This document shows positions 9,527-32,653 of a stretch of DNA of 64,000 bases, one piece after another. The notes under the pieces were generated by a model. It was given only the letters and a program-made list of their open reading frames with translations, did not search any database and was not told where the DNA came from. The DNA is taken from positions 62,001-126,000 of the forward strand of contig NZ_JAKWJQ010000002.1 of the NCBI RefSeq assembly GCF_022761015.1. The letters are read 5' to 3'. Position numbers and translations under genes: made by a program. The stretch is from Humibacter sp. RRB41 (GTDB lineage Bacteria > Actinomycetota > Actinomycetes > Actinomycetales > Microbacteriaceae). Numbering within the stretch: the first letter of the stretch is position 1; each line of letters begins with the position of its first letter.

Positions 9527-11683
9527 ATGACCGCTGCTTCTTCACCCGCCACGGCGTCGAAAGGCGGCAAGACGCCCAAACGGGGCGGAGCGCCGAAGGG
9601 CGCGTTCAACGCGAGGCAATTGTGGACGAGCCTCCCGGATGCTCTGCGCAAGCTGAGTCCGCGTGTGCTCTGGCACAACCCCGTGATGTTCATCGTCGAG
9701 GTGGGTGCTGCGCTCACCACCGTGCTCGCGATCGCCCAACCGTTCCTCGGGCATCAGGTCTCCGGCGGAACCTCGACGTCGGTCGCATTCACCTGGTGGA
9801 TCGCGATCTGGCTCTGGTTCACTGTGCTCTTCGCCACCCTGGCAGAGGCAGTCGCCGAGGGTCGGGGCAAGGCGCAGGCCGCCAGCCTGCGCACGACGCG
9901 CACCACCACGAGTGCCGATCGCGTCGTGGACTATGCGGATGACGATCCCGGCGCGCTGCACGCGGCGACGACCCGGATCGCATCGGCCGACCTCACGCTC
10001 GGCGATGTCGTGGTCATCACGGCGGGCGACTTGATCCCCGGCGACGGCGACATCATCTGGGGCGTCGCCTCGGTCGACGAGTCCGCCATCACAGGCGAGT
10101 CTGCGCCGGTGGTGCGCGAATCCGGCGGCGATCGCAGTGCGGTGACGGGCGGAACGCGCGTGCTCTCCGACCGCATCGTCGTGCGCATCACGTCGAAACC
10201 GGGTGAGACGTTCGTCGACCGCATGATCCGTCTCGTCGAGGGCGCGGCACGACAGAAGACACCGAACGAGATCGCGCTGAACATCCTGCTCGCAGGGCTC
10301 ACGATCATCTTCGTGGTGGTGATCCTCGCACTCGGCCCGGTCGCCGGCTACGCGGATGCCGCCCCCACCGTTCCCGTGCTCGTCGCGCTGCTGGTCTGCC
10401 TCATCCCGACCACCATTGGAGCCTTGCTGTCGGCGATCGGCATCGCGGGCATGGACCGGCTCGTGCAGCGCAACGTGCTTGCGATGTCGGGAAGGGCCGT
10501 CGAGGCTGCGGGCGATGTGAACACGCTGCTGCTCGACAAGACGGGGACGATCACGTACGGCAACCGTCAGGCGAGCGAGTTCCTGCCGCTTCCCGGTGTC
10601 GGTGACGACGCACTCGTGAATGCTGCTGCCCTGGCATCACTCAGCGATCCGACGCCGGAGGGCTCGTCAGTCGTGGCGCTTGCAAAGACACTCGGTCACA
10701 GCCCGTCGTCGTCTGTGGCCAGTGAGTCAGTGCCGTTCACGGCTCAGACGCGCATGAGCGGTATCGATCTGAGCGACGGCACGCAGATCCGCAAGGGCGC
10801 AGCGAGCGCGGTCTCCGCCTGGGCGGGGAGCGAGGGCGCGATCGATTCCGCTGTCGCATCCGAGCTCGATCGCATCGTCCAGCGCATCTCGCAGTCCGGA
10901 GGCACGCCGCTCGCGGTCGCGACGCGGGAGCCGAACGGCGGGGCGCGCATCCTCGGGGTCATCCATCTCAAGGACGTCGTGAAGACGGGACTCGCCGAGC
11001 GGTTCGCGGATCTGCGGCGCATGGGCATCCGCACCGTCATGGTGACGGGAGACAACCCGCTCACCGCGAAGGCGATCGCCGACGAGGCGGGCGTCGACGA
11101 CGTGCTCGCCGAGGCGACGCCCGAGGACAAACTGGCGCTGATCCGCAGGGAGCAGGAGGGCGGCAAGCTCGTCGCGATGACCGGTGACGGCACGAACGAC
11201 GCACCGGCGCTGGCTCAGGCCGATGTCGGCGTGGCGATGAACACGGGCACATCGGCGGCGAAGGAAGCCGGCAACATGGTCGACCTCGACTCCGACCCGA
11301 CGAAACTCATCGACATCGTCGCGATCGGCAAGCAACTGCTGATCACCCGCGGAGCGCTCACCACTTTCTCGATCGCGAACGACGTCGCGAAGTACTTCGC
11401 GATCATCCCCGCGATGTTCGTGGGCGTCTTCCCCGGGCTGCAGGCGCTCAACATCATGCAGCTGCATTCTCCGTCTTCGGCGATCCTATCCGCGGTGATC
11501 TTCAACGCGATCATCATCGTGATCCTGATCCCACTGGCGCTGCGAGGCGTGCGGTATCGCCCGTCGTCGGCATCACAGCTGCTCGGACGCAACCTGCTGC
11601 TCTACGGACTGGGCGGCATCATCGCGCCGTTCATCGGCATCAAGCTCATCGACCTGCTGGTCGCCCTGATCCCCGGCTTCTGA
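9527..11683 (+). CDS. kdpB: Potassium-transporting ATPase subunit B, KdpB (P-type ATPase)
   Basis: The 718-residue catalytic subunit carries the phosphorylation motif DKTGT with D337, the TGES actuator motif and the [18 protein letters not shown] hinge. An Ala/Gly/Lys-rich N-terminal tail precedes the first membrane segment. The ATG at 9527 lies 2 nt after the kdpA stop; longer upstream readings overlap kdpA and are not supported. ATP hydrolysis here drives high-affinity K+ import through KdpA. Confidence 0.97.
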
Positions 11684-20964: not shown

Positions 20965-22062
20965 ATGACGACCATCACGACGCCAGGCCTCGGGGCGGTG
21001 CGGTCTACGGTTCCGCGTACTCCGGGTGCGAACAACGACTACACGCAGTTGGCGTCCGACATCCGTGGTTCCGGCCTGCTGAGGCGCAGGTACGGGTACT
21101 ACTGGACGAAGCTCGTCGCCGTGCCGATCGCCTACGCCGCGTGCTTCGCGCTGCTCCTGTGGGTCGGCAACTCCTGGTGGCAGATGGCCGTCTCTGCGCT
21201 GTTCGCGTTCGTCTTCACCCAGACCGCCTTTCTCGGACACGACGCCGCGCATCGGCAGATCTTCCGCTCAGGCCGGTGGAACGACTGGATCAGCCTCATT
21301 CTCGGCGACCTCTTCATCGGCATGAGCTACGGCTGGTGGCAGCACAAGCACACCAAGCACCACGCGAATCCGAACCGCGAAGGGTACGACCCCGACATCG
21401 AGTTGCCGGTGATCGCCTTCACACCGGAGCAAGCACGCAAGCCCAGGCCGTGGCCGCTGCCCTGGGTGTTCGCGCACCAGGGGGCGTTCTTCTTCCCGAT
21501 CCTGTTCCTCGAGGGCATCTCGCTGCACGCCTCGAGCGTGCGCCGCGTGTTCGCCCGCGAGCCGGTGGCTCGTCGCCCCGTGGAGATCACCTTCCTGATG
21601 GCGAGGCTGATCGGATACCTCGGCATCGTGTTCTTCATCCTTCCGCCCGGCAAGGCGGTCGCCTTCCTGGCAGTGCAGCTCGGGCTGTTCGGCTTCTACA
21701 TGGGCATGTCGTTCGCTCCCAACCACAAGGGGATGCCACTGGTGCCGAGGGAGATGAAGCTCGACTTCTTGCGCAGGCAGGTGATGATGAGCCGTAACAT
21801 CCGCGGCAATCGCGTGCTCGACTTCGCAATGGGCGGGCTCAACTATCAGATCGAGCACCACCTCTTTCCGTCGATGCCGAGGCCGCATCTGAGACGCGCA
21901 GCACCGATGGTGCGCGACTATTGCGCCGATCGTGATGTGCCGTATCTGGAGACCGGACTGTTCGAGTCGTACACGATCGTGTTCCGCTACATCAACCGGG
22001 TGGGGCTGGGGGAGAAGGATCCGTTCGCCTGTCCGATGCTCGAGGTACGGCAGAGTATCTAA
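20965..22062 (+). CDS. Membrane fatty acid desaturase
   Basis: The 365-residue integral membrane di-iron enzyme has the three histidine boxes: HDAAH at 92-96, a HKHTKHH box near 130, and QIEHHLF near 300, plus pairs of transmembrane helices. It inserts a double bond into acyl chains of membrane lipids, probably with electrons from a ferredoxin or similar partner. GGGGAGAG before the ATG at 20965 defines the start. Its last 71 nt overlap, tail to tail, the end of the CDP-alcohol transferase gene on the other strand. Confidence 0.92.
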   Translation: MTTITTPGLGAVRSTVPRTPGANNDYTQLASDIRGSGLLRRRYGYYWTKLVAVPIAYAACFALLLWVGNSWWQMAVSALFAFVFTQTAFLGHDAAHRQIFRSGRWNDWISLILGDLFIGMSYGWWQHKHTKHHANPNREGYDPDIELPVIAFTPEQARKPRPWPLPWVFAHQGAFFFPILFLEGISLHASSVRRVFAREPVARRPVEITFLMARLIGYLGIVFFILPPGKAVAFLAVQLGLFGFYMGMSFAPNHKGMPLVPREMKLDFLRRQVMMSRNIRGNRVLDFAMGGLNYQIEHHLFPSMPRPHLRRAAPMVRDYCADRDVPYLETGLFESYTIVFRYINRVGLGEKDPFACPMLEVRQSI

Positions 22063-22768
22063 GCGCCCGTGGCGCCTCGGCCGGCGAGCGGTGCCGCACG
22101 AGCCACACGACATCGCGCCCGAACGATTCGACGAGCAGCAGAAGGGCCGCGAGCACAAGGACCACTGCGAGCTGCGCGAGCAGTCCGGATGCCGCGAACG
22201 TCAGGGCGATGCCCTGCGCGGCGGTCACGACCTTGCGCCAGTACCGGGGCGGGAGCTGCGCACGAAACCAGGGGAGTGCCCAGCCGACGGCCACGAAGGC
22301 GTAACGCATGAGGCCGATCGCGAGCACCCAGACGCCGAGGGTCTGCGCGACGTAGGCGCTGAGCACCATGAGCAGGAAGGCATCCACCTCCATGTCGTAC
22401 CGGGCGCCGAGTTCGGAGGCCGACCCTGTGCGGCGTGCGACCCAGCCGTCCACCGCGTCGAGCGCGAGCGCGGGGATCGCCAGCCCCACGAGAAGCGGCA
22501 CAGGAATCGGCCCGACGAACGACGCCGCGACGATGGCGGTGATCAGCGCGACGAGTGTGGACCGCGCCGTTGTCACGACGTTCGCCCAGCCGACACGTGT
22601 TGCGCCCCTGCGGTGCAGACCGACGCCGAGCAGAACGTTGGAGACCACGGCGTAGGTGGCTCCCGCTGCCCAGCCGGCAGGCGGAAGCCGCGTCACCAGG
22701 TGCACAAGCGCAAGGCCGGCGATGCACGCAGCCGTCGCGGTGATCGGAATCCAGTGAACCGTTCTCAT
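21992..22768 (-). CDS. CDP-alcohol phosphatidyltransferase family membrane protein
   Basis: The 258-residue polytopic membrane protein contains the catalytic motif D104-x2-D107-G-x2-AR-x8-G121-x3-D125-x3-D129 that defines this family, which transfers a phosphoalcohol from CDP-alcohol to an acceptor (or a phosphatidyl group to an alcohol). AGGAAG upstream favours the ATG at 22768 over one at 22801. It is divergent from the seven-gene train at 22888-29613, sharing its promoter region, so it may build the lipid part of the same product. Acceptor unknown. Confidence 0.85.
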   Translation of the reverse strand: MRTVHWIPITATAACIAGLALVHLVTRLPPAGWAAGATYAVVSNVLLGVGLHRRGATRVGWANVVTTARSTLVALITAIVAASFVGPIPVPLLVGLAIPALALDAVDGWVARRTGSASELGARYDMEVDAFLLMVLSAYVAQTLGVWVLAIGLMRYAFVAVGWALPWFRAQLPPRYWRKVVTAAQGIALTFAASGLLAQLAVVLVLAALLLLVESFGRDVVWLVRHRSPAEAPRALRYSAVPRASDRRTDPSPPAPPG

Positions 22769-22887
22769 GGTCTTCCTCGTGTCTTCTGTCAGAGCCCTCA
22801 TTCCTTAAGACGCGACGACGCGCCGAGCGGTTCAGATGCGATCGGCGATCCGATCGTACGACGCGTGATCGAGTCGAAGGGAGACAC

Positions 22888-23883
22888 GTGCTCGAGGCGA
22901 CGGCGTTCTGGATCGAAAGGCCGGGACTCGGTGCGCTGCGTACGCAGTCGCTGCCACCGGTCGAAGCCGACGAGGTGCTCGTTCGCACGCGCTACACCGC
23001 GGTCAGCCGGGGAACCGAGAGCACGGTGTTCCTCGGCCGGGTGCCGAACGGCGAGCGCGAGCGCATGCGAGCGCCACATCAAGATGGCGACTTTCCCTGG
23101 CCGGTCAAATACGGCTATTTGAACGTCGGCCGGGTCGAACAGGGGCCGAGCGAGCTGGTGGGGCGCACGGTGTTCACGCTGTACCCGCATCAATCGGCGT
23201 TCGTGGTCCCGGCCGCCGCGGTGCTGCCGGTGCCCGACGACGTTCCGGCCAGGAGGGCGGTGCTGGCCGGCGCCGTGGAGACCGCGGTGAACGTCGTGTG
23301 GGATGCCTCACCGCTCATCGGCGATCGTGTCGTGGTGATCGGTGCCGGGATGATCGGATGCTGCGTCGCGCGACTGCTGGCCGGCATCCCTGAGGCTGAC
23401 GTGACGCTGGTGGATGTCGATCCGTCTCGTCGGACGACGGTGGAGCGGCTCGGGGTCGGCTTCGCGGATCCGGCACATGCGCCACGGGACTGCGATGTGG
23501 TGATCGACGCGAGCGGGGCGGAATCCGGCTTGCAGCTCGCTCTTCAGGCAGTGGCGGACGAGGGCGAGGTGATCGAGGCCGGCTGGTTCGGCGATCGGCC
23601 CGTCACCCTGACGCTCGGCGCCGATTTCCACTCGCGAAGGCTGTCCATCCGCTCGAGCCAGGTCGGCATGGTCGCTCCAAGGCGACGCGGCACGCGAAGC
23701 ACGAAGGACAGGCTCGCTCTCGCCCTGCGACTGCTGCGAGATTCGGCATTCGACGCTCTGCTCAGCGGTGAGTCGTCGTGGCGCGATCTCCCGCGGGTGA
23801 TGGCCGAACTGGCCGAAGGCTCGACCGAGAAGGGGGGCGCGCCCGTGCTCTGTCACACCATCGATTGGGAGGACGCATCGTGA
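22888..23883 (+). CDS. MDR-superfamily dehydrogenase, first gene of the pterin-like train
   Basis: The 331-residue protein has a GroES-like N-terminal half ('[17 protein letters not shown]') and a Rossmann half with [13 protein letters not shown] near 150 and a VDVDP acidic end to the next strand. The usual catalytic zinc Cys and GHE motif of alcohol dehydrogenases are not visible; the pattern resembles the BchC-like branch. GGGAG precedes the GTG. It heads seven genes that each overlap the next by 4 nt. Oxidation or reduction of a hydroxyl on the pathway intermediate is the likely role. Confidence 0.85.
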
Positions 23884-24281
23884 CGTTCACCGTGACCGTC
23901 CGCGACCACATGATGGTCGCCCACAGCCTCTTAGGCGAGGTCTTCGGGCCGGCGCAGCGCTTGCACGGCGCAACGTTCGTCGTCGACGCCTCCTTCGGCG
24001 CCGACGAACTCAACACAGACGGCATCGTGGTCGACATCGGTCTCGCGTCCGCCGCGCTGCACGAGATCGTCGGAGCGTTCGCGTACCGCAACCTCGATGA
24101 CGAACCGGAGTTCACGGGGATGAACACCACGACGGAGCAGCTCTGCCGAGTGATCGCGGATCGCCTCGCGGAGCGCGCTTCGGCCGGCAGCCTCGGCGAC
24201 CCAGGGCGACTCCTGTCGTCCGTCGCGGTCACGTTGCACGAGTCCCACATCGCGTGGGCGAGCTATCAGAGGGCGTTGTGA
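23880..24281 (+). CDS. Divergent 6-pyruvoyltetrahydropterin synthase / QueD homologue
   Basis: The 133-residue protein fits the PTPS fold: '[26 protein letters not shown]' area, GIVVDIG at 48-54, NTTTEQL at 82-88 (matching the PTaE motif) and TLHES at 118-122. Two zinc histidines are conserved (H15, H29), but the third, expected at 31, is Ala, and no Cys stands at the catalytic position before H29; the only Cys is C89. So it is a PTPS-like enzyme with an altered active site and probably a different reaction. Coupled by GTGA overlaps at both ends. Confidence 0.85.
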
Positions 24282-25372
24282 GCGACACACGAGATTCGGC
24301 ACCGCGCATCGTGCACGTCGTCGTGCCGGAAGGCGTGGACGACCCTCTTCGGGTCAGCGGTGGAAACGTCTACGACCTCGCGTTGTGCCGGGGGCTGACG
24401 GATCTGGGGTGGGACGTGCGAATGCTCCGGAGTGCGTCAGGCGGTTTCGCAACGACGGCGGTTCTCTCGCGTCTGCCCGACGGAGCCGTGGTCGTCATCG
24501 ACGGGCTGCTCGCCGTGGAAGCGCCGGATGCTCTGGAACGGGAGTCCGGCCGCCTCCGCATGGTCGTGCTCGCGCACATGGTCGCGGCATCGGTCGCACC
24601 TGAGCACGAGCGGGCAGCGGCAGCAGATCGCGAGCGGCGCGCGCTCGATGCGGCGGCGGGGGTGGTCGTCACGAGCAGGTGGACGCGAGACGAGCTCGTG
24701 TCGGAAGGCCTTTCCCATCCTGACCGCATCGTGGTCGCCCTGCCCGGCGTGGAGCGGGTACCCGCGACCGTCGCTTCGCCGGGTGGAACGCGGCTCCTCT
24801 GCGTTGGCGCCGTCGCTCCGCACAAGGGCCAGGACGTGTTGCTGCGCGCGCTCGCAGGGCTCGATGACCGACAGAACTGGACGTGCACCCTCGCGGGATC
24901 GCTCGACGTCGACCCGGACTTCGTCGCAGCGCTGATGACGGTCGCCGAGGCGGCGGGGCTGGGGGAGCGCATCCGGTTCGCCGGGGTGCTGATGGGCAGC
25001 CGACTCGCGGATGCCTATGCAGCGGCCGATCTCCTCGTCGCGCCGTCTCGCGCGGAGAGCTTCGGCATGGCGGTGGCCGAGGCGCTGGCGCACGGCATCC
25101 CGGTGCTCGCCAGCCGGGTCGGCGGCCTTCCGGAGGCGGTGGACGGAAGCGGGGCGGGCATCCTTGTGCCGCCGGACGATCCGTGGGCCCTGCGCGTCGT
25201 GCTGCAGCAGTGGTGGTCCGATGCCGGCAGGCGGTCGGCTCTGAAGGCAGAGGCCATGCGCACGCGTTGTTCGGCACCGGGTTGGCATGAGACGGCAGAA
25301 TCCATCGCCACCGTGCTGAGCGATGTGGCGAGCGGTCACGCGGTGCACGCAAGCAGCAGGAGGAGAGCATGA
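24278..25372 (+). CDS. Glycosyltransferase, family 4-like (GT-B)
   Basis: The 364-residue protein shows the GT-B plan: an N-terminal '[26 protein letters not shown]' region, central '[20 protein letters not shown]', and the C-terminal '[44 protein letters not shown]' donor-site motif with the E-x7-E pair. It retains the sugar-nucleotide type of GT4 enzymes. In the train it would glycosylate the pterin-like product or its lipid carrier. Coupled to neighbours by 4-nt overlaps at both ends. Confidence 0.9.
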
Positions 25373-26187
25373 CCGACGTCGTTCAGACCAGCAGCTCGTG
25401 GCTCGCACTGCGCGAGCCGGAGGATGCCCGCTCGCGCTCGATGCAGCTCGCCCTGGCGGCTGCGACTCGGCTTGGGGACCCACCGATCGTCGTCCACGAT
25501 CTCGGCAGCGGCACCGGCTCGATGATGCGCTGGCTCGCACCGCTGCTTCCCGGTCCGCAGACCTGGGTGCTGCACGACTGGAACGCGAGCCTCGTGGCCA
25601 GCGCGCGGGACGAACGGATGCCTGTCGACCGCGACGGCCGCCCGCTGTCGGTGCGCACGAGCGTCGGGGAGCTCGAGCACGTCGACGGCGATGACCTGCG
25701 GGGAGCTTCGCTCGTCACGGCATCCGCGTTGCTCGACGTGCTGACGTCCGAGGAGGTGCACGCGATCGCAGCGGCGTCTGTCGCAGCCGGTGCCCCTGTG
25801 CTGCTGAGTCTCAGCGTGACGGGCAGGGTCGATCTGATTCCGAGGCATCCGCTGGACGAGGCATTCCAGAATGCGTTCAACGCTCATCAAAGGCGCAGCG
25901 CCGACGGCAGGCGGTTGCTGGGCCCGCACGCTGTCGCGGTCGTTCGCGGGCTGTTCCTCGAGGCGGGCTGGCACGTGCGCCCTGTCGAGACGCCGTGGCG
26001 GCTCGGGCCGCACGATGCGCGACTGCTCGCCGAGTGGTTCGACGGCTGGACGGATGCCGCACTCGAGCAGAGCCCGCACCTCCACGACGATGCCTCCGAC
26101 TACCTCGACCTTCGCCGAGCCCAGCTGACGGACGGAGCGCTGTCCGCCGTCGTGCACCACAGGGATCTTCTGGCGTGGTCGCGATGA
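25369..26187 (+). CDS. Class I SAM-dependent methyltransferase
   Basis: The 272-residue protein has the SAM-binding motif VVHDLGSGTGSMMRWLAPLL near 41-60, an acidic HDWN loop, and a 'LVTASALLDVLTSEEV' motif IV region. It would methylate an O or N atom on the pathway intermediate; the acceptor cannot be read. ATGA overlaps join it to the glycosyltransferase before and the membrane protein after. No stand-alone activity is implied by the surroundings. Confidence 0.88.
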   Translation: MTDVVQTSSSWLALREPEDARSRSMQLALAAATRLGDPPIVVHDLGSGTGSMMRWLAPLLPGPQTWVLHDWNASLVASARDERMPVDRDGRPLSVRTSVGELEHVDGDDLRGASLVTASALLDVLTSEEVHAIAAASVAAGAPVLLSLSVTGRVDLIPRHPLDEAFQNAFNAHQRRSADGRRLLGPHAVAVVRGLFLEAGWHVRPVETPWRLGPHDARLLAEWFDGWTDAALEQSPHLHDDASDYLDLRRAQLTDGALSAVVHHRDLLAWSR

Positions 26188-27197
26188 GCCAGGCAGCGAG
26201 CGCGACGACCTTGAGACCCGTTCCGTCGACTGCCGACGTGGCGAGCAGGGACGCGAAGGCGAAACGACAGCTGAAGTCCGCCGTCGGTTCTCGCCGCTTT
26301 CGCGCGTGGGTGCGCCCGGTTGCCGGTGTGATCCTGCTGGCCGTCATCGTGTGGCGGGTCGGTGCAGCTCCCTTCGTGCACGGCCTGCTCAGCGTAGACC
26401 TGCGGGCGGTGGCAGCTGCGCTCGTGCTGTGCGCCGTGTCGACGGCCGCGTCGGCGTGGCGGTGGCGGGTCGTGGCGAACCGGCTCGGCGTGCGCATCGC
26501 GCTTCCGACCGCGATCGGCATGTACTACCGCTCGCAGTTCCTCAACTCCGTGCTTCCCGGTGGGCTGCTCGGTGATGTGCACCGCGCCGTCGCCCACGGA
26601 GGCGACTCCGGCGACGTGCCGCAGGCATCCCGTGCCGTCGTGATCGAACGGATTGCTGGCCAGGTCGTTCAAGTGATCGTCACGGTCGGGGTGCTGGCAT
26701 GGGCGGGGGCGGAATTCGAGGGATCGGTGCTCCTCGCCCTCGGAATCGTGCTCGCCGTCATCATCGTGACCGCCTCCATCGTCATCGCGAGCGCACGACT
26801 GCGGCGTGTCATCGCACGCGAGGTCGCCGAGCTGCGAGCCGGCGTCGGATCGCCGTCCGCGATCGTGCAGGTCGTCGTCGCGTCCGTCGTCGCGGTCGGA
26901 TGCCACGTCGCCGTCTTCGCGATCGCCGTCGCCGCCGTCGGCGTGCAGGTCCCGCCACTCCGGTCGGGTGTCATCGCCCTCGTCGTGCTGCTCGGCGCCT
27001 CGATCCCCGTGAACATCGGCGGATGGGGCCCGCGCGAGGGCGTCGCCGGATGGACCTTCGCAACAGCGGGACTGGGATCGGCGGCGGGAGTCGCCGCATC
27101 GACCACTTTCGGCGTCATCGCCTTGATCGCGGTGGCTCCGGGCGCGGTCATCGCGATCGCTCTCGCTTCACACCGTCGAGGAGATCGACCATCATGA
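26184..27197 (+). CDS. Flippase-like membrane protein (LPG_synthase_TM / UPF0104 type)
   Basis: The 337-residue polytopic protein carries 'MYYRSQFLNSVLPGGLLGDVHRAV' and 'NIGGWGPREGVAGWTF' motifs of the lysylphosphatidylglycerol synthase transmembrane family, which is also found as a stand-alone membrane protein (AglD-like). A charged 50-residue N-terminus precedes the first helix. No aminoacyltransferase domain follows, so it is not a lysyl-PG synthase. It could move or anchor a lipid-linked product. Coupled by ATGA overlaps. Confidence 0.8.
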   Translation: MSQAASATTLRPVPSTADVASRDAKAKRQLKSAVGSRRFRAWVRPVAGVILLAVIVWRVGAAPFVHGLLSVDLRAVAAALVLCAVSTAASAWRWRVVANRLGVRIALPTAIGMYYRSQFLNSVLPGGLLGDVHRAVAHGGDSGDVPQASRAVVIERIAGQVVQVIVTVGVLAWAGAEFEGSVLLALGIVLAVIIVTASIVIASARLRRVIAREVAELRAGVGSPSAIVQVVVASVVAVGCHVAVFAIAVAAVGVQVPPLRSGVIALVVLLGASIPVNIGGWGPREGVAGWTFATAGLGSAAGVAASTTFGVIALIAVAPGAVIAIALASHRRGDRPS

Positions 27198-27973
27198 CAG
27201 CACCGCGCATGACCTCACGCCGCGAGCCGCGCCCCTATGTGACGCTCAGCAGCGCCATGTCGATCGACGGCTATCTCGACACGGCCCTGCCGCCACGGCT
27301 GATGCTCTCGAATGCCGCCGACTTCGACCGCGTCGACGAGCTGCGTGCAGAGAACGACGCGATCCTGGTCGGTGCGCGCACGATCCGCAAGGACAACCCG
27401 CGGCTGCTCGTGCGCAGCGAAGACCGACGCGGCCTCAGGGCATCGGCCGGCAGGTCCCGACTGCCGTGGAAGGTGACGGTCACAGCGACGGGAGACCTCG
27501 ACCCGTGTTCGGCGTTCTTCGTCGTCGGTGATACCCGAAAACTGGTCTATTGTCCTTCGTCGGTGCAAGGGACGTTGCACCGACGCCTCGGGTCGCTCGC
27601 CTCCGTGGTGGGACTCGGCGAGGACGTAACCATGATCGACCTGCTCAGCGACCTGTGCGAGCGCGGCGTGCAGAGCCTCATGGTCGAAGGCGGGGGAATG
27701 GTGCACACGCAGTTCCTGGCATCCGGCCTCGCGGACGAGTTGCAGCTGGTCGTCGCCCCGTTCTTCGTCGCCGACGAGCAAGCACCGCGTCTGGTTCGCA
27801 ACGGCGCCTTCCCCTGGACGGCCGACCATCGCGCTCGGCTCGTCGAGGTGAGGCCGATCGGGGACGTCGTGCTCTTGCGATACGGACTGTCGGAGCGTTG
27901 CGTCGAAGAGTCAAAGATCGCCTCGCCCCGCGTGCGACCTGCTTCGGTGTTCTCGGCGGGGATCAGGGCATGA
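27194..27973 (+). CDS. RibD C-terminal-type reductase (dihydrofolate-reductase fold)
   Basis: The 259-residue protein has the RibD_C plan: YVTLSSAMSIDGYLD near the start, 'ENDAILVGARTIRKDNPRLLVR', and 'LMVEGGGMVHTQFLASGLADELQLVVAPFFVAD'. RibD C-terminal proteins reduce pyrimidine or pteridine ribosyl intermediates with NADPH. With the PTPS homologue two genes upstream this argues for a pteridine- or flavin-like heterocycle. The last 30 residues are an unusual tail. Coupled at both ends by ATGA. Confidence 0.85.
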   Translation: MTAPRMTSRREPRPYVTLSSAMSIDGYLDTALPPRLMLSNAADFDRVDELRAENDAILVGARTIRKDNPRLLVRSEDRRGLRASAGRSRLPWKVTVTATGDLDPCSAFFVVGDTRKLVYCPSSVQGTLHRRLGSLASVVGLGEDVTMIDLLSDLCERGVQSLMVEGGGMVHTQFLASGLADELQLVVAPFFVADEQAPRLVRNGAFPWTADHRARLVEVRPIGDVVLLRYGLSERCVEESKIASPRVRPASVFSAGIRA

Positions 27974-29613
27974 GCGAGCGATCGGATGCCCGCGACGACG
28001 ACCGGCGGGCAGTTGTGGTGGTCGCGACAACGGCCGCCGTCCTCGTGCTGTTCGTTGCGGCGCTCGCTCCTGGCCTGATCGCCTCCGGATCGGGGCTCGC
28101 CCTTCTCCGCGTTCCCGTCGAGGCCGTGCTCGGGCTGCTCGTGCTGGCACTGCTGCCGTGGGCGTTCGCCCGCAGGATCGTCGCGGCGTTCATCGCCGTT
28201 CTCCTCGTCGCAGCGGCGGTTCTCGCAGCGCTCGACAAGGGGTTCGAGACGACGCTGAGCCGCCCGTTCAACATCGTCACGGATTGGCCGGAGCTGCGGG
28301 ATGCCTACGGCGTGCTCAGTGATTCGGCCGGCGGCTTCGGTGCGGCCGGGCTCGTCGCTCTGCTTCTGCTTGCGGTGGCTGCGGCGCTTGTGGCGGTGAC
28401 CTGGGCGCTCCTGCGCATCGATCGCGTCCTGCGCACTCATCGCAGGGCGGCCCTGATCGGTGGATCGAGTGTGACCGCGGTCTGGGTGGTCGCGGCGCTC
28501 GTCGGGGCGCAACTGGTTCCCGGGGAGCCGGTTGCGGCATCCTCTGTGATCGGAACCCTGGAGCAGAAGGCCGTGCAGGCCGGCGTGACCGCGCACGACC
28601 AAGCGGCGTTCGCGAAGGCTGCGGTGAGCGATCCGTATGCGAAGCTGCCGGCATCCGACCTGCTCACCGGCCTCAAGGGCAAAGACGTCATCGTCGCCTT
28701 CATCGAGAGCTACGGTCAGGTCGCCGTGCAGAACACCTCGTTCTCGTCGGGCGTCGACAAGGTGCTGAACAGCGGTAACGCCCAGCTCGCGAAGGCCGGG
28801 TACTCCGAACGCAGTGCGTTCCTGACCTCGCCCACCTTCGGAGGTATCAGCTGGCTGGCGCACTCGACACTGCAGAGCGGGCTGTGGGTCGACTCGCAGC
28901 AGAAGTACGACCGCGTCACGTCGAGCGACAGGTTCACCCTGAGCGATGCGTTCAAGAAGGCAGGATGGCGCACTCTCAGCGATGTGCCGTCGGATGCCGC
29001 TCCTTGGCCGGTCGGAAAGTCGTTCTACCACTACGACACGCTGCTGAACTCGCAGAACGTCGGGTATCAGGGACCGCGATTCAGCTACGCGCGCATCCCC
29101 GACCAGTTCACCTGGAACTACCTTCAACAGCACGAACTCGCCTCCCCGCATAAGCCGTTCATGGCGGAGGTCGACTTCGTCTCGTCGCACACGCCGTGGA
29201 CTCCGCTTCCCCATCTGGTGCCGTGGTCGTCGGTCGGCGATGGATCCGTCTACGACCCGCAGCCCGCGGAAGGGCTGCCGCCGAGCGTGGTCTGGCAGAA
29301 CCCCCGCCACGTGCAACAGCTGTACGGGGAGTCGGTGCAGTACACGATGAGCACGCTGTTCTCGTTCCTGACCACCTTCAACGACCCGAACCTCGTGCTC
29401 GTCGTGCTCGGCGATCACCAGCCGGCGACCGTGGTGAGCGGGTCGGGAGCGAACCACGATGTGCCCATCAGCATCATCTCGAAGGACAAGGGGGTGATCG
29501 CCGGCATCGACTCCTGGCACTGGCAGCAGGGCGTGTTCCCGTCACCGGCGGCGCCGGTGTGGCGCATGGATGCCTTCCGCAATCGTTTCTTGACCGCCTA
29601 CGGCCCGCAATGA
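27970..29613 (+). CDS. Membrane-anchored sulfatase / LTA-synthase-like phosphotransferase
   Basis: The 547-residue protein has about five N-terminal membrane helices (to about residue 190) and an alkaline-phosphatase-superfamily catalytic domain facing outward. Visible motifs are 'VIVAFIESYGQ', 'LTSPTFGG' (Thr as probable nucleophile, as in LtaS), 'VSSHTPWTPLP' and 'VVLGDHQP'. It could transfer or remove phospho-alcohol groups on a surface glycolipid. It ends the train; the next gene starts 138 nt later. Confidence 0.85.
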   Translation: MSERSDARDDDRRAVVVVATTAAVLVLFVAALAPGLIASGSGLALLRVPVEAVLGLLVLALLPWAFARRIVAAFIAVLLVAAAVLAALDKGFETTLSRPFNIVTDWPELRDAYGVLSDSAGGFGAAGLVALLLLAVAAALVAVTWALLRIDRVLRTHRRAALIGGSSVTAVWVVAALVGAQLVPGEPVAASSVIGTLEQKAVQAGVTAHDQAAFAKAAVSDPYAKLPASDLLTGLKGKDVIVAFIESYGQVAVQNTSFSSGVDKVLNSGNAQLAKAGYSERSAFLTSPTFGGISWLAHSTLQSGLWVDSQQKYDRVTSSDRFTLSDAFKKAGWRTLSDVPSDAAPWPVGKSFYHYDTLLNSQNVGYQGPRFSYARIPDQFTWNYLQQHELASPHKPFMAEVDFVSSHTPWTPLPHLVPWSSVGDGSVYDPQPAEGLPPSVVWQNPRHVQQLYGESVQYTMSTLFSFLTTFNDPNLVLVVLGDHQPATVVSGSGANHDVPISIISKDKGVIAGIDSWHWQQGVFPSPAAPVWRMDAFRNRFLTAYGPQ

Positions 29614-29751
29614 ACGGGCTTCGACCTGAGGACCGCGGCCGGAATCGGCACAGTGGATCCGGCGCAGATCTGAACGTTCACGCGCGCTCACTCGTGTACT
29701 CAACGGCGGCCTCACACAACGGGGGACCACATCGAAAGACAGGTGACGGGA

Positions 29752-30171
29752 ATGAGCGGTAGCAACCAAGGCGCCCTGTGGGTCATACGGATCCTCAGCG
29801 CGATCATCCTTCTCACGATCGGCGGATTCCATTTGTTCCTGGTGTTCGACGGCGTCGGCGGCCTGCTCGGTGTGCTGTTCGTGCTGAATGCCATCGCCGG
29901 TATCGTGCTGGCGATCGCCATGCTCGTTCTCCGCGGTCTGTTGCTCACATGGGCGACGGTGCTGAGCCTGCTGTTCGTCATCGCGTCTCTGCTGTCGCTG
30001 CTGCTCGCGTTGACCGTCGGGCTCTTCGGTATCACCGAGGTCTGGAGCTTCACCCTCGTGCCTGAGACGGTCATCGTCGAGGCCATCGGCGTCGTCGTGC
30101 TCGCCATCGCCACCGCGATCGTCGTGCGTGCACCGCGAAAGGTGTCGTCGGATGCCCCGGCGCGGGCGTGA
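29752..30171 (+). CDS. Small multi-span membrane protein, unknown function
   Basis: The 139-residue protein is mostly hydrophobic, with four predicted helices ('VIRILSAIILLTIGGFHLFLVF' at the start, then two central spans, and a last one near 110-128). GTG at 29743 is an alternative start, but it forms part of a Shine-Dalgarno-like GGTGACGGG before the ATG at 29752. No family recognised. It sits downstream of the train, perhaps read from it. Confidence 0.65.
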   Translation: MSGSNQGALWVIRILSAIILLTIGGFHLFLVFDGVGGLLGVLFVLNAIAGIVLAIAMLVLRGLLLTWATVLSLLFVIASLLSLLLALTVGLFGITEVWSFTLVPETVIVEAIGVVVLAIATAIVVRAPRKVSSDAPARA

Positions 30172-30244: not shown

Positions 30245-31417
30245 ATGACCGGCGTCGGCGCTGTCGCCTCGACCGTGAATCCTCGCCGGATCGTCGGACT
30301 CGACGGGATCCGCGGGCTCGCAGCGCTGTACGTCGTGCTCAACCACATCTTCGAGCGGGCATGGCCGGGCGCCTCTGCCGTGCACGCGCCGCTCTGGGCG
30401 GCATGGCTCGGTGACGGACGGTTCGCGGTGATCGTCTTCATCGCGGTCTCCGGATTCTCGCTCGCCCTCGGTCCCGTGCGCTCTGGATGGCGCTTCGCAT
30501 CGATCCGGGAGTTCGGGCGCCGACGCGCCTGGCGCATCCTGCCGCCGTACTGGGCGGCCTTGGGGTTCAGCCTGGTCATGGTCTGGTGTGTGCTCGCGCA
30601 GCCAGGGTGGACGGTGCCGAACGCCAAATCCGTTGTCGTCTACGGACTGCTGGTGCAGGATGCCGTGCCTGCCGGCATCCCGAACCGTGCATTCTGGTCG
30701 ATCGCCATCGAGGCGCAGCTCTACCTTCTTCTGCCGTTGCTGCTGTTGATCGTGCGCCGCGTCAGCGCGCCGGCGATGGCGGCATCGGTAGCCGCGGTCG
30801 TCGTCACGATCGGGCTGCTCGGGCCGCACGTGTCACTTCTGAACGACGCGCTCGTGAAGTTCACACCCGACCTCGCCGTGCTGTTCGCCGTCGGCGTCGT
30901 TGCGGCGGGGATCGTCACCGCGAAGGAGCGCGTGCGGTCGCAGCCGTGGGGCTGGTATGCACTCGCAGCGTCGGTCCCGGTCGTCGTTCTGGTCGCGGTC
31001 GAGGGCGCGACCTGGTCGAATCTCAACGTGTTCTGGGTTGATCTGGCCTGGGCCCCCGCGATCGGATGCTTCCTCGCCTCGATCGCCACCTCGCGGCCGC
31101 GGAGCATCGTGCGCCTCCTTGACACGCGGCCGCTCCGCAGCCTCGGGTCGTTCTCGTACAGCCTCTATCTGACCCACATGCCGATCGTGATAGCCGTGTC
31201 CTACGGCCTTGTGCTGCCTCGCGTCGAGTCGGGTGCGCCGGCCTTCTTCGTGCTCGTCGCCGTGCTCGTGCCGGCAACGGTGTGTTTCGCCCGAGTGTTC
31301 GCTGCGGTCTTCGAACTGCCGTTTCAGAGGTACCGAGGGTGGAAAGCACTGCGCGAAGCGGCGGTGCCCGTCGTGCGGCGATTCGTACCACGTGGTGCCT
31401 CCATTCGGGGTCGATGA
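30245..31417 (+). CDS. Acyltransferase 3 family membrane protein
   Basis: The 390-residue protein has the family's first segment 'RIVGLDGIRGLAALYVVLNHIFERA' with the catalytic-type His after the first helix, about ten membrane helices, and the 'GSFSYSLYLTHMPIVIAVSYG' motif late in the sequence. These proteins O-acylate sugars, lipids or peptidoglycan at the membrane. The Shine-Dalgarno is weak (AAGG), so the start is less sure. It may modify the product of the train upstream, but the 74-nt gap and the hairpin leave this open. Confidence 0.85.
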   Translation: MTGVGAVASTVNPRRIVGLDGIRGLAALYVVLNHIFERAWPGASAVHAPLWAAWLGDGRFAVIVFIAVSGFSLALGPVRSGWRFASIREFGRRRAWRILPPYWAALGFSLVMVWCVLAQPGWTVPNAKSVVVYGLLVQDAVPAGIPNRAFWSIAIEAQLYLLLPLLLLIVRRVSAPAMAASVAAVVVTIGLLGPHVSLLNDALVKFTPDLAVLFAVGVVAAGIVTAKERVRSQPWGWYALAASVPVVVLVAVEGATWSNLNVFWVDLAWAPAIGCFLASIATSRPRSIVRLLDTRPLRSLGSFSYSLYLTHMPIVIAVSYGLVLPRVESGAPAFFVLVAVLVPATVCFARVFAAVFELPFQRYRGWKALREAAVPVVRRFVPRGASIRGR

Positions 31418-31486: not shown

Positions 31487-32653
31487 TCAGTTGGCGAGTC
31501 GCGTGCGCGGCTGCAGCTCGGGGAAGGCGGCCGTCACCATGTCGGCGAGTTCGTCGAGCGGCCGTGTCAGCGGATCGGTTGCCGGCAGTCCGGTCTCCGT
31601 TTCGAGCACGCCGATCGCAGGGGCGATCTCGTCGGGCGTCATGTCCTCGTGGTTCATGGTGACCCCGATGACCTTGGTGTCGGCGAACGCCTCGATGAGG
31701 GTCACCTCGCTCGTGACGCTCGGCACCGGCATCATCGGGAAGTCGCCGAGCATGCGGCGCTTGGGGGCGTGCTGCACGATGACGCCGCTCGCACGGCTGC
31801 CGCGCAGGATCTGCGCGCTGCTCATGTATGCGGGGTGGCTCAGGGCGCCCTGTCCCTCGACGACGATCACGTCGGGGTCTTCGCCCAGGAACGCGGCGAC
31901 GACCTGGTTCTCCACCTCGCCGGAGCAGAACTGGGGAACGATCGCGTCGAGCGCGACGCCGTACTTGCCGCCTTGCATGATCGAGGTCTGGCCGGTGCCG
32001 ACCAAGACGGCACGGATGCCTCGAGCGTTCAGAGCCTGCACGAGCAGAGTGGCCGTTGTGCGCTTGCCGACCGATCCGTCGGTGCCGAGCACCGCGATGC
32101 GGGGGCAGGTGACGTCGAAGATGCGGCCGGAGAAGAGGTGCAGGTCCTTCTTCTCCTTGGGGCGGCGTACATCGGTGATCGTGACCCCGTTCTGCAGCGC
32201 TGCTGCCGCGAACTCCGGATCGTCGTTCAAGAACTCGTGAAGGCCGTTCACGATGTGCATGCCCTGCTCGATGCCGTCGAGCAGCACAGAGCGGTGGGTG
32301 TCGGAGAGCAGGCCGTCCGCCGGCGCCATGCCGAAGATCAGGTAGTCGGGCGTGCGGCCGGCGCGGGACAGAGCCGCTGTGAGTGAGGCGACAACGGGGA
32401 TGCCGTTGGGGACGCCGTCGAGCTGTGCGCCGGCATCCGCGCCGTCGTGCGTGCTGTCGATGACGCTCAGAATCTCGTAGCGCTCCGAAAAACGAACGAG
32501 GCCGTTGGCGGTCTTGCCGTCCTGCTCGCCGAACAGGCCCTCGCAATAGACGATGGCGGTGGCACCGACCGGCAGAGTCGGCTCGATTCCGGCCGGTACG
32601 GGACGCGTCGCGTCGTCGGTGGACGGCGCGGTGAAAGGGGGTACGTGCGACAT
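31487..32653 (-). CDS. DUF1611 P-loop protein (DgcN-like)
   Basis: The 388-residue protein has an N-terminal alpha/beta domain (to about 170) and a C-terminal P-loop NTPase-like domain with GTDGSVGKRTT near 190-200, then 'VGTGQTSIMQGG' and 'IVVEGQGALSHPAY'. This is the DUF1611 plan. From memory, members called DgcN were linked to N-acetylation of D-glutamate together with a partner racemase; I see no partner here, so the substrate stays open. AGAGGAG precedes the ATG at 32653. Confidence 0.8.
   Translation of the reverse strand: MSHVPPFTAPSTDDATRPVPAGIEPTLPVGATAIVYCEGLFGEQDGKTANGLVRFSERYEILSVIDSTHDGADAGAQLDGVPNGIPVVASLTAALSRAGRTPDYLIFGMAPADGLLSDTHRSVLLDGIEQGMHIVNGLHEFLNDDPEFAAAALQNGVTITDVRRPKEKKDLHLFSGRIFDVTCPRIAVLGTDGSVGKRTTATLLVQALNARGIRAVLVGTGQTSIMQGGKYGVALDAIVPQFCSGEVENQVVAAFLGEDPDVIVVEGQGALSHPAYMSSAQILRGSRASGVIVQHAPKRRMLGDFPMMPVPSVTSEVTLIEAFADTKVIGVTMNHEDMTPDEIAPAIGVLETETGLPATDPLTRPLDELADMVTAAFPELQPRTRLAN

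Follow-up and report, generated by a model that had tools for sequence, protein, structure and literature searches.

We analysed a window of 64,000 nt from Humibacter sp. RRB41, whose positions serve as coordinates below, and found that a train of seven genes (A to G) around a PTPS/QueD-fold protein, together with a divergent CDP-alcohol phosphatidyltransferase gene, is almost certainly a functional unit. The gene order is conserved beyond close relatives, across phyla and into archaea, and the earlier proposal of one conserved pathway is supported. On our best reading, the end product would carry a methylated, glycosylated head group of the pterin or pyrimidine type and is perhaps lipid-linked. 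In many related clusters the set is accompanied by enzyme families that make 2,5-diamino-6-ribosylamino-4(3H)-pyrimidinone 5'-phosphate (DARPP), the first intermediate of riboflavin synthesis. The genes of the train and its flanks are as follows.

21992-22801, minus strand: CDP-alcohol phosphatidyltransferase, divergent from the train (PF01066, 45.4 bits)
22888-23883, plus strand: gene A, MDR-fold NAD(P)-dependent oxidoreductase, BchC-like (Pfam 29.7 bits, cut-off 31.8 bits)
23880-24281, plus strand: gene B, PTPS/QueD-fold protein (PF01242, 81.3 bits, cut-off 22.4)
24278-25372, plus strand: gene C, family-4 (GT-B) glycosyltransferase, GT4 (PF00534, 100.3 bits)
25369-26187, plus strand: gene D, class I SAM-dependent methyltransferase (PF13649, 19.3 bits, cut-off 27 bits)
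26184-27197, plus strand: gene E, flippase-like / LPG-synthase-TM membrane protein (PF03706, 114.3 bits)
27194-27973, plus strand: gene F, RibD_C / Rib7-type pyrimidine reductase (PF01872, 120.7 bits)
27970-29613, plus strand: gene G, membrane protein with an alkaline-phosphatase/sulfatase-fold domain (PF00884, 20.7 bits, cut-off 25 bits)
29743-30171, plus strand: gene H, candidate accessory gene for a 142-aa membrane protein (no Pfam or NCBIfam match)

The seven open reading frames are intact, and six junctions in succession each overlap by exactly 4 nt (ATGA or GTGA), as the first-pass annotation of this DNA had described. Such overlaps suggest that the genes are coupled. The additional claim that the products must be made in a fixed ratio was an over-reading, since 4-nt overlaps point to coupling and not to stoichiometry. 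In Microbacteriaceae loci, a start codon permitting the 4-nt overlap was present in 15/20, 18/20, 16/17, 12/17, 17/18, and 13/14 cases for the six junctions (raw counts without a chance control, which include the window and count three loci twice from two collections). A 4-nt start is thus usable at most junctions in relatives, and the overlaps are no accident of one genome.

Conservation of the gene set in Actinomycetota

A total of 118 loci, including the window, were mapped, and 115 distinct loci were left after removal of the duplicates L066/L146, L067/L147, and L079/L153. The duplicates remain in all counts out of 118 and in the junction counts, and L095, L101, and L110 are kept in both sets; two further fetched loci, L052 and L053, did not enter the analysis. 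Because contigs end within 4.5 kb of gene B in 17 of the 118 loci, gene absences are uncertain there. Counts among the 115 distinct loci were 112 for gene A, 111 for C, 99 for E, 96 for the CDP-alcohol transferase, and 94 for D, followed by 73 each for F (RibD_C) and GTP cyclohydrolase II (GCH II), 41 for a creatininase-family gene, and 35 for G. The MDR and PTPS-like genes were adjacent in 107 distinct loci and the PTPS-like and GT4 genes in 108; in some loci (e.g., L048) RibD_C is fused with GCH II. Gene B matched at least 583 places in the species collection, of which the closest 80 were kept, and carriers among the matches listed include Streptomyces, Micromonospora, Actinoplanes, Pseudonocardia, Actinomadura, Nocardioides, Microbacterium, Agromyces, and a metagenome-assembled genome of the Thermoleophilaceae.

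A clade-specific secondary metabolite cluster, for example for a nucleoside-like antibiotic, would fit the patchy distribution of B, present in 24 of the 149 genomes examined for the order and in 15 of 120 for the family (both figures include the window's genome), as well as its carriage on plasmids. However, the same core occurs in three phyla and two domains, and beyond the genes named above no extra gene cluster was present in more than 18 of the 118 loci, the sole exception lying over D on the opposite strand (small clusters were not searched in the family libraries). We therefore regard this explanation as quite improbable. A serine-hydrolase-like gene recurs in 18 loci (e.g., L087, 15271-16758) and is annotated as such beside ribA on a Streptomyces plasmid.

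A phylum-wide tally of 107 out of 396 was rejected as a measure of the spread of the B family after the motifs of its loci were inspected. Thirty loci from this tally comprised nine (L174-L182) with the motif FGPAQ-HGA, 20 (L184-L203) of a sister type with FGPAxRxHGHT, and one (L183) with no motif. All eight weaker phylum-wide matches that were fetched (L209-L215, L218) retain the QueD-like CxxxHGH motif.

Residue loss in the PTPS-like protein

PTPS enzymes hold zinc by three histidines (H and HxH), use a catalytic Asp-His pair, and anchor the 2-amino-4-oxo ring by a Glu. In the B family, two zinc histidines are retained in 118/118 sequences, and the second His of HGH is replaced by Ala in 116 and by Val in two. 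At the Asp-His pair, all 118 sequences have another residue for the His (Tyr in 114) and four retain the Asp, while the ring-anchoring Glu is retained in every one. The catalytic Cys of QueD/PTPS proteins sits in a CxxxHGH (QueD) or CxxxxxHGH motif (PMC5041015). All 118 B sequences have Ala at the QueD position, and the sole Cys of the window's protein is residue 89. Since the catalytic Cys, the third zinc His, and the catalytic His are gone in the whole family, B is not a PTPS, and the first-pass label of a pterin-type enzyme fails in the PTPS sense. Compared with PTPS/QueD (COG0720), B has the same fold, Pfam family, and pterin-anchoring Glu, but it is without the catalytic Cys, the third zinc His, and an intact Asp-His pair. 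Judging from its sequence, B most likely binds a 2-amino-4-oxo-pyrimidine ring and catalyses a different reaction. The closest solved structure is that of the Streptomyces coelicolor orthologue SCO6650 (3d7j, E 2e-54 with the family profile). Its authors are said to have reported no zinc and no PTPS activity.

Database annotation of B on plasmids reads '6-carboxytetrahydropterin synthase', which would make the train an ordinary folate, queuosine, or riboflavin set under a default name. This has a negligible chance of being correct and is already contradicted by the catalytic residues lost in all 118 sequences, by a separate riboflavin operon and a GTP cyclohydrolase I (GCH I) in the same genome (described below), and by the annotated genes of the train, which include none other for queuosine or folate. 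A queuosine, folate, or riboflavin operon was rejected on the basis of the residue loss, the separate operon, and GCH I.

Stand-alone copies of B occur in three Streptomyces (L095, L101, L110; around 9944-10402), where the cluster is absent. Their neighbours, with names read from translations, resemble an ECF-type sigma factor and a SARP-like regulator.

Other proteins of the train

The families assigned to the seven genes in the first pass agree with Pfam and NCBIfam; the calls for A, D, and G are weak, all three being under their Pfam cut-offs. Gene A contains a GAGMIG Rossmann motif, and its family consensus reads SRGTE and KYGYL, with every column reaching a conservation of 85% or more across 114 sequences, at positions where zinc MDR enzymes presumably have Cys and GHE. 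By this consensus, and with the ligand positions as we assume them, gene A is without the catalytic zinc ligands of zinc-dependent alcohol dehydrogenases. BchC is its best NCBIfam match (58.4 bits), which likens it to the BchC-type MDR dehydrogenases; however, the score is far under the BchC cut-off (291.25 bits), and the train has no bacteriochlorophyll gene.

Gene C has an E-x7-E motif at residue 260. Gene D belongs to its own conserved family, with same-family HMM matches in all 14 plasmid loci that were opened, including four archaeal ones, and a sequence search found no solved relative. With a glycosyltransferase and a methyltransferase in one set, the proposed glycosylation plus methylation of a heterocycle is supported. 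The gene set likewise supports the proposed membrane-linked part. Gene E has eight hydrophobic segments, and the CDP-alcohol phosphatidyltransferase has seven, along with a complete DxxDGxxAR...GxxxDxxxD motif from residue 115. Gene G has six hydrophobic segments and conserved ESYG, LTSPTxGGxSWLAH, SSHxPW, and GDHQP motifs, and found no sequence match in PDB at E 0.1. A classical sulfatase was rejected for G, which has no C/S-x-P-x-R formylglycine motif; the predicted protein is probably an LtaS/EptA-like phosphotransferase.

The RibD_C domain of gene F spans residues 14-227 of 259, and the deaminase domain is absent. Its best NCBIfam match is TIGR01508 (DARPP reductase, 112.6 bits), and its nearest solved proteins are 5xux and relatives (E 1.6e-29). 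Gene F is also related to Rv2671 (structure 4xrb), another RibD_C protein, which reportedly has DHFR-like activity.

Outside the seven genes, a homologue of gene H lies near the cluster in 14 of the 115 distinct loci (window included), mostly in Microbacteriaceae. Further downstream, 30245-31417 encodes an acyltransferase-3 family membrane protein (PF01757) outside the conserved set, and 31487-32653 on the minus strand encodes what we take from its translation to be a DUF1611/DgcN-type protein.

GTP-opening enzymes and the supply of DARPP

The first-pass annotation had vaguely placed a GTP cyclohydrolase near similar sets in other actinobacteria, and this was borne out, the enzyme being GCH II. 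A conserved Tyr, which we take to be position 105 as counted on E. coli RibA, is retained in 33/33 cluster GCH II without a nearby creatininase-family gene and gone in 40/40 with one (Met in 30, His in nine, Gln in one). Of the 41 creatininase loci, 40 have GCH II in reach and L112 has none. A further pair of non-Tyr GCH II and creatininase lies on a Streptomyces plasmid. The four proteobacterial ribA genes all encode Tyr, with no creatininase in the opened stretch. In Haloarcula sp. GH36, one of four haloarchaeal loci opened, GTP cyclohydrolase III (GCH III), which is unrelated to GCH II, overlaps the MDR gene, and in H. sinaiiensis a creatininase-family gene lies ~5 kb upstream of the MDR gene.

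Bandarian and co-workers are said to have found that Met at the Tyr site in SCO6655 halts the enzyme at the formylated product. Archaeal GCH III yields the formylated product, and BrbF, a creatininase-family protein, is a proven AFRPP formamidase that converts AFRPP to DARPP (PMC9478397). The three routes, namely Tyr-type GCH II, non-Tyr GCH II plus creatininase, and GCH III, should all yield DARPP, which we consider the well-supported and likely start of the pathway. The supposed heterocycle is probably derived from GTP, as had been implied. GCH I as a hidden partner was rejected, since the clusters carry GCH II or, once, GCH III. On the tree, the GCH II sequences split into one group of 24 rows and, at a wide distance, another of 50 rows that includes the RibAB of the window's genome; this split suggests that GCH II was recruited more than once. 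In five large, Streptomyces-like genomes (G453, G286, G442, G421, G389), a third GCH II gene lies within ~1 kb of a stand-alone RibD_C gene. This third GCH II, although far from the cluster, may feed the same pathway.

A search for a GTP cyclohydrolase elsewhere in the Humibacter genome, which had been put forward as a check, found one GCH I and one GCH II match, both on contigs other than the window's. The GCH II (Tyr type) lies in a normal-looking ribD-ribE-ribAB-ribH operon on contig C8 (gene names read from translations). GCH II is absent from the window and from 14/14 family loci (the search of the window's genome did not extend to GCH III). Of the 14 carriers in the same family, 13 have a single GCH II and one has two. 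The Pfam matches of the train include no DHBP synthase, deaminase, lumazine synthase, or riboflavin synthase gene. Because no GCH II other than the riboflavin enzyme is present in the genome, we infer that the train has to borrow from riboflavin synthesis, if DARPP is used at all.

DARPP could also serve a bypass of GCH I, in which B closes it to dihydroneopterin phosphate and F acts as a dihydropterin reductase to provide a dedicated pterin pool. B has the tunnel fold shared by GCH I, PTPS, and FolB. The presence of GCH II or GCH III in clusters, the HxH retained in sister and haloarchaeal versions of B, and the relationship of F to RibD_C proteins including Rv2671 are consistent with such a bypass. 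However, the window's B is without the third zinc ligand and the catalytic residues, and F is nearest to ribosyl reductases, and we consider the bypass unlikely.

Plasmid-borne and sister clusters

A plasmid search returned 29 records, including Alphaproteobacteria, Gammaproteobacteria, and haloarchaea, of which 14 were opened. The core of MDR, PTPS-like, and methyltransferase genes was present in 14/14, from Actinomycetota, Pseudomonadota, and Halobacteria, and the CDP-alcohol transferase in 8/14. The set is complete, with G, flippase, CDP-alcohol transferase, ribA, MDR, PTPS, GT4, methyltransferase, and RibD genes, in Peteryoungia, Agrobacterium, and Rhizobium SL42. A cytochrome b gene stands next to RibD in four proteobacterial clusters (L223, L226, L231, L236), those of Peteryoungia, Agrobacterium, Rhizobium SL42, and Thiodictyon, and the Peteryoungia protein (L226) belongs to the b561 family by Pfam. 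Four aligned haloarchaeal versions of B retain HxH and have no Cys. Overall, these genes form an old and mobile set.

Another class of the phylum carries sister clusters. Fifteen loci were fetched there, comprising six of the sister type (L204-L208, L216), one of the main type (L217), and eight with a QueD-like PTPS only, in one of which (L210) RibD and GCH II matches lie more than 5 kb away. RibD, MDR, PTPS, and GT4 genes are co-oriented in 6/6 sister clusters, and FolB, a second methyltransferase, and a PHP-type phosphatase surround these four genes in all six, with the layout FolB / RibD-MDR-PTPS-GT4-methyltransferase-PHP phosphatase-AlaX-like. In L204, GT4 and methyltransferase are fused in one protein. 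The sister PTPS retains HGH and has Ala for Cys and His-Tyr for Asp-His. No FolB was found near the 118 main loci.

The product could instead be a soluble glycosylated tetrahydropterin cofactor or pigment of the cyanopterin or Chlorobium type, with the membrane genes merely as neighbours. The opened loci of Methylosinus, Palleronia, Halobellus, SC52, Neorhizobium, and Halomicrococcus have no CDP-alcohol transferase, flippase, or G match, and neither do the six sister clusters, all of which adjoin FolB. Chlorobium tepidum has a known pteridine glycosyltransferase (PMC5683033), which provides a precedent. On the other hand, the train here has the flippase gene in its interior, a flippase occurs in 99 of the 115 distinct loci, the CDP-alcohol transferase occurs in 96, and both recur in Alphaproteobacteria. 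A soluble product therefore seems rather unlikely to us. Given the absences in the sister clusters and the scarcity of flippase and G in the plasmid loci, the lipid part of the pathway may be lineage-specific.

Proposed pathway

For the lipid-linked product, we propose the following route. GTP would be opened and deformylated to DARPP, in Humibacter presumably by the riboflavin enzyme RibAB. F would reduce either DARPP (ribosyl to ribityl, Rib7-like) or the later dihydropterin ring, and the near-constant companions B (tunnel-fold) and A (MDR) would convert it into a pterin- or pyrimidine-type core. D would methylate this core and C would glycosylate it, the divergent CDP-alcohol phosphotransferase would link the product to a phospholipid moiety, E would assist outward flipping, and G would add a phospho-substituent outside; the order of C, D, and the lipid steps is provisional. 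That the train taps the first riboflavin intermediate and follows this full pathway is about an even call. As far as the gene families indicate, a pterin-type ring would be right in perhaps every second such case, and a lipid linkage falls a little short of an even chance.

Several observations weigh against the proposal. Gene F scores beneath the DARPP-reductase equivalog cut-off (186.45 bits), 42 of the 115 distinct loci have no RibD_C close to the cluster (some of them are truncated by contig ends), and six Streptomyces-like genomes have their best RibD_C elsewhere than in the cluster. Early ribityl formation by F would chemically exclude a GCH I-like ring closure by B, so the two genes cannot both be read in the simple way. 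The match between Tyr and creatininase amounts to one event: a 74-row tree requires only one change at the Tyr site and one gain of creatininase, with one independent pair (sign test p = 1), which makes it a single correlated switch and not many. Among the opened plasmid loci, the flippase is found in only 5/14 and G in only 4/14, and GT4 is within reach in 12/14, one of these weak, distant, and on the opposite strand, and absent in two. Within the fetched 20 kb, the sister clusters show no match to GCH II, the CDP-alcohol transferase, the flippase, G, or the D-family methyltransferase, and their FolB could be an ordinary folate gene.

In its widest form, the proposal is of a pathway common to bacteria and haloarchaea that leads from the DARPP branch point to a membrane-anchored, glycosylated, methylated pterin-type lipid, perhaps a lipid-bound redox carrier. 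This is a tentative idea that we think doubtful as a whole; the redox role may hold, because four proteobacterial clusters contain a cytochrome b gene. The parts look like cofactor biosynthesis, and the carriers span three phyla and two domains. If true, the product would be, to our knowledge, the first pterin lipid and its route the first for pterin export, with assembly by a tunnel-fold enzyme that has a new active site.

Comparison with known systems

Cyanopterin and the Chlorobium pteridine glycosides are made with GCH I and a true PTPS. They resemble the proposed product in combining a GTP-derived pterin with a glycosyltransferase, but the excerpts of the Chlorobium paper name no lipid-transfer or flippase gene (PMC5683033). 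The BrbF/ArfB formamidase step is likewise comparable, with the creatininase-family gene of the 41 distinct loci as a candidate for AFRPP to DARPP conversion; the product there is riboflavin, whereas the other riboflavin genes are not in the train (PMC9478397). According to a 2026 review of bacterial pterins, an efflux system for pterins has yet to be identified (PMC13259868). With its flippase gene, a pterin-type cluster such as this one would offer a candidate.

The train had also been called undescribed. This stands for the product, for which no description was found in Creative Commons-licensed PMC papers, and among these papers none on the whole cluster was found; it does not stand for all of the parts, as SCO6650 (3d7j) and, reportedly, SCO6655 have been studied. 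The related region of S. coelicolor is presumably SCO6648-SCO6655, with the outer number obtained by count. SCO6650 is the closest solved relative of B, and SCO6655 is GCH II (PMC2853524). The two bracket four gene numbers, which equal the GT4, methyltransferase, flippase, and creatininase order in Streptomyces loci; the assignment was made by counting from Streptomyces loci without a local RibD and not from the S. coelicolor locus itself. Because four genes sit between SCO6650 and SCO6655, SCO6652 should be the methyltransferase. In second versus first mycelium, SCO6652 had log2 values of 0.8, 4.3, and 4.1 at 24, 48, and 72 h, and it was ~17-20-fold up at stages called aerial and spores; the text searched named no other gene of SCO6649-SCO6654 (PMC3610822). 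This late rise may point to a function in cells at the surface or in stationary phase. The Humibacter train differs from the S. coelicolor region in having RibD_C and G inside and neither a creatininase nor a GCH II of its own. If our proposal is true, the cluster would explain why Streptomyces and its kin retain a PTPS relative devoid of the PTPS catalytic residues alongside an altered GTP cyclohydrolase II, and it names the missing partners of both proteins.

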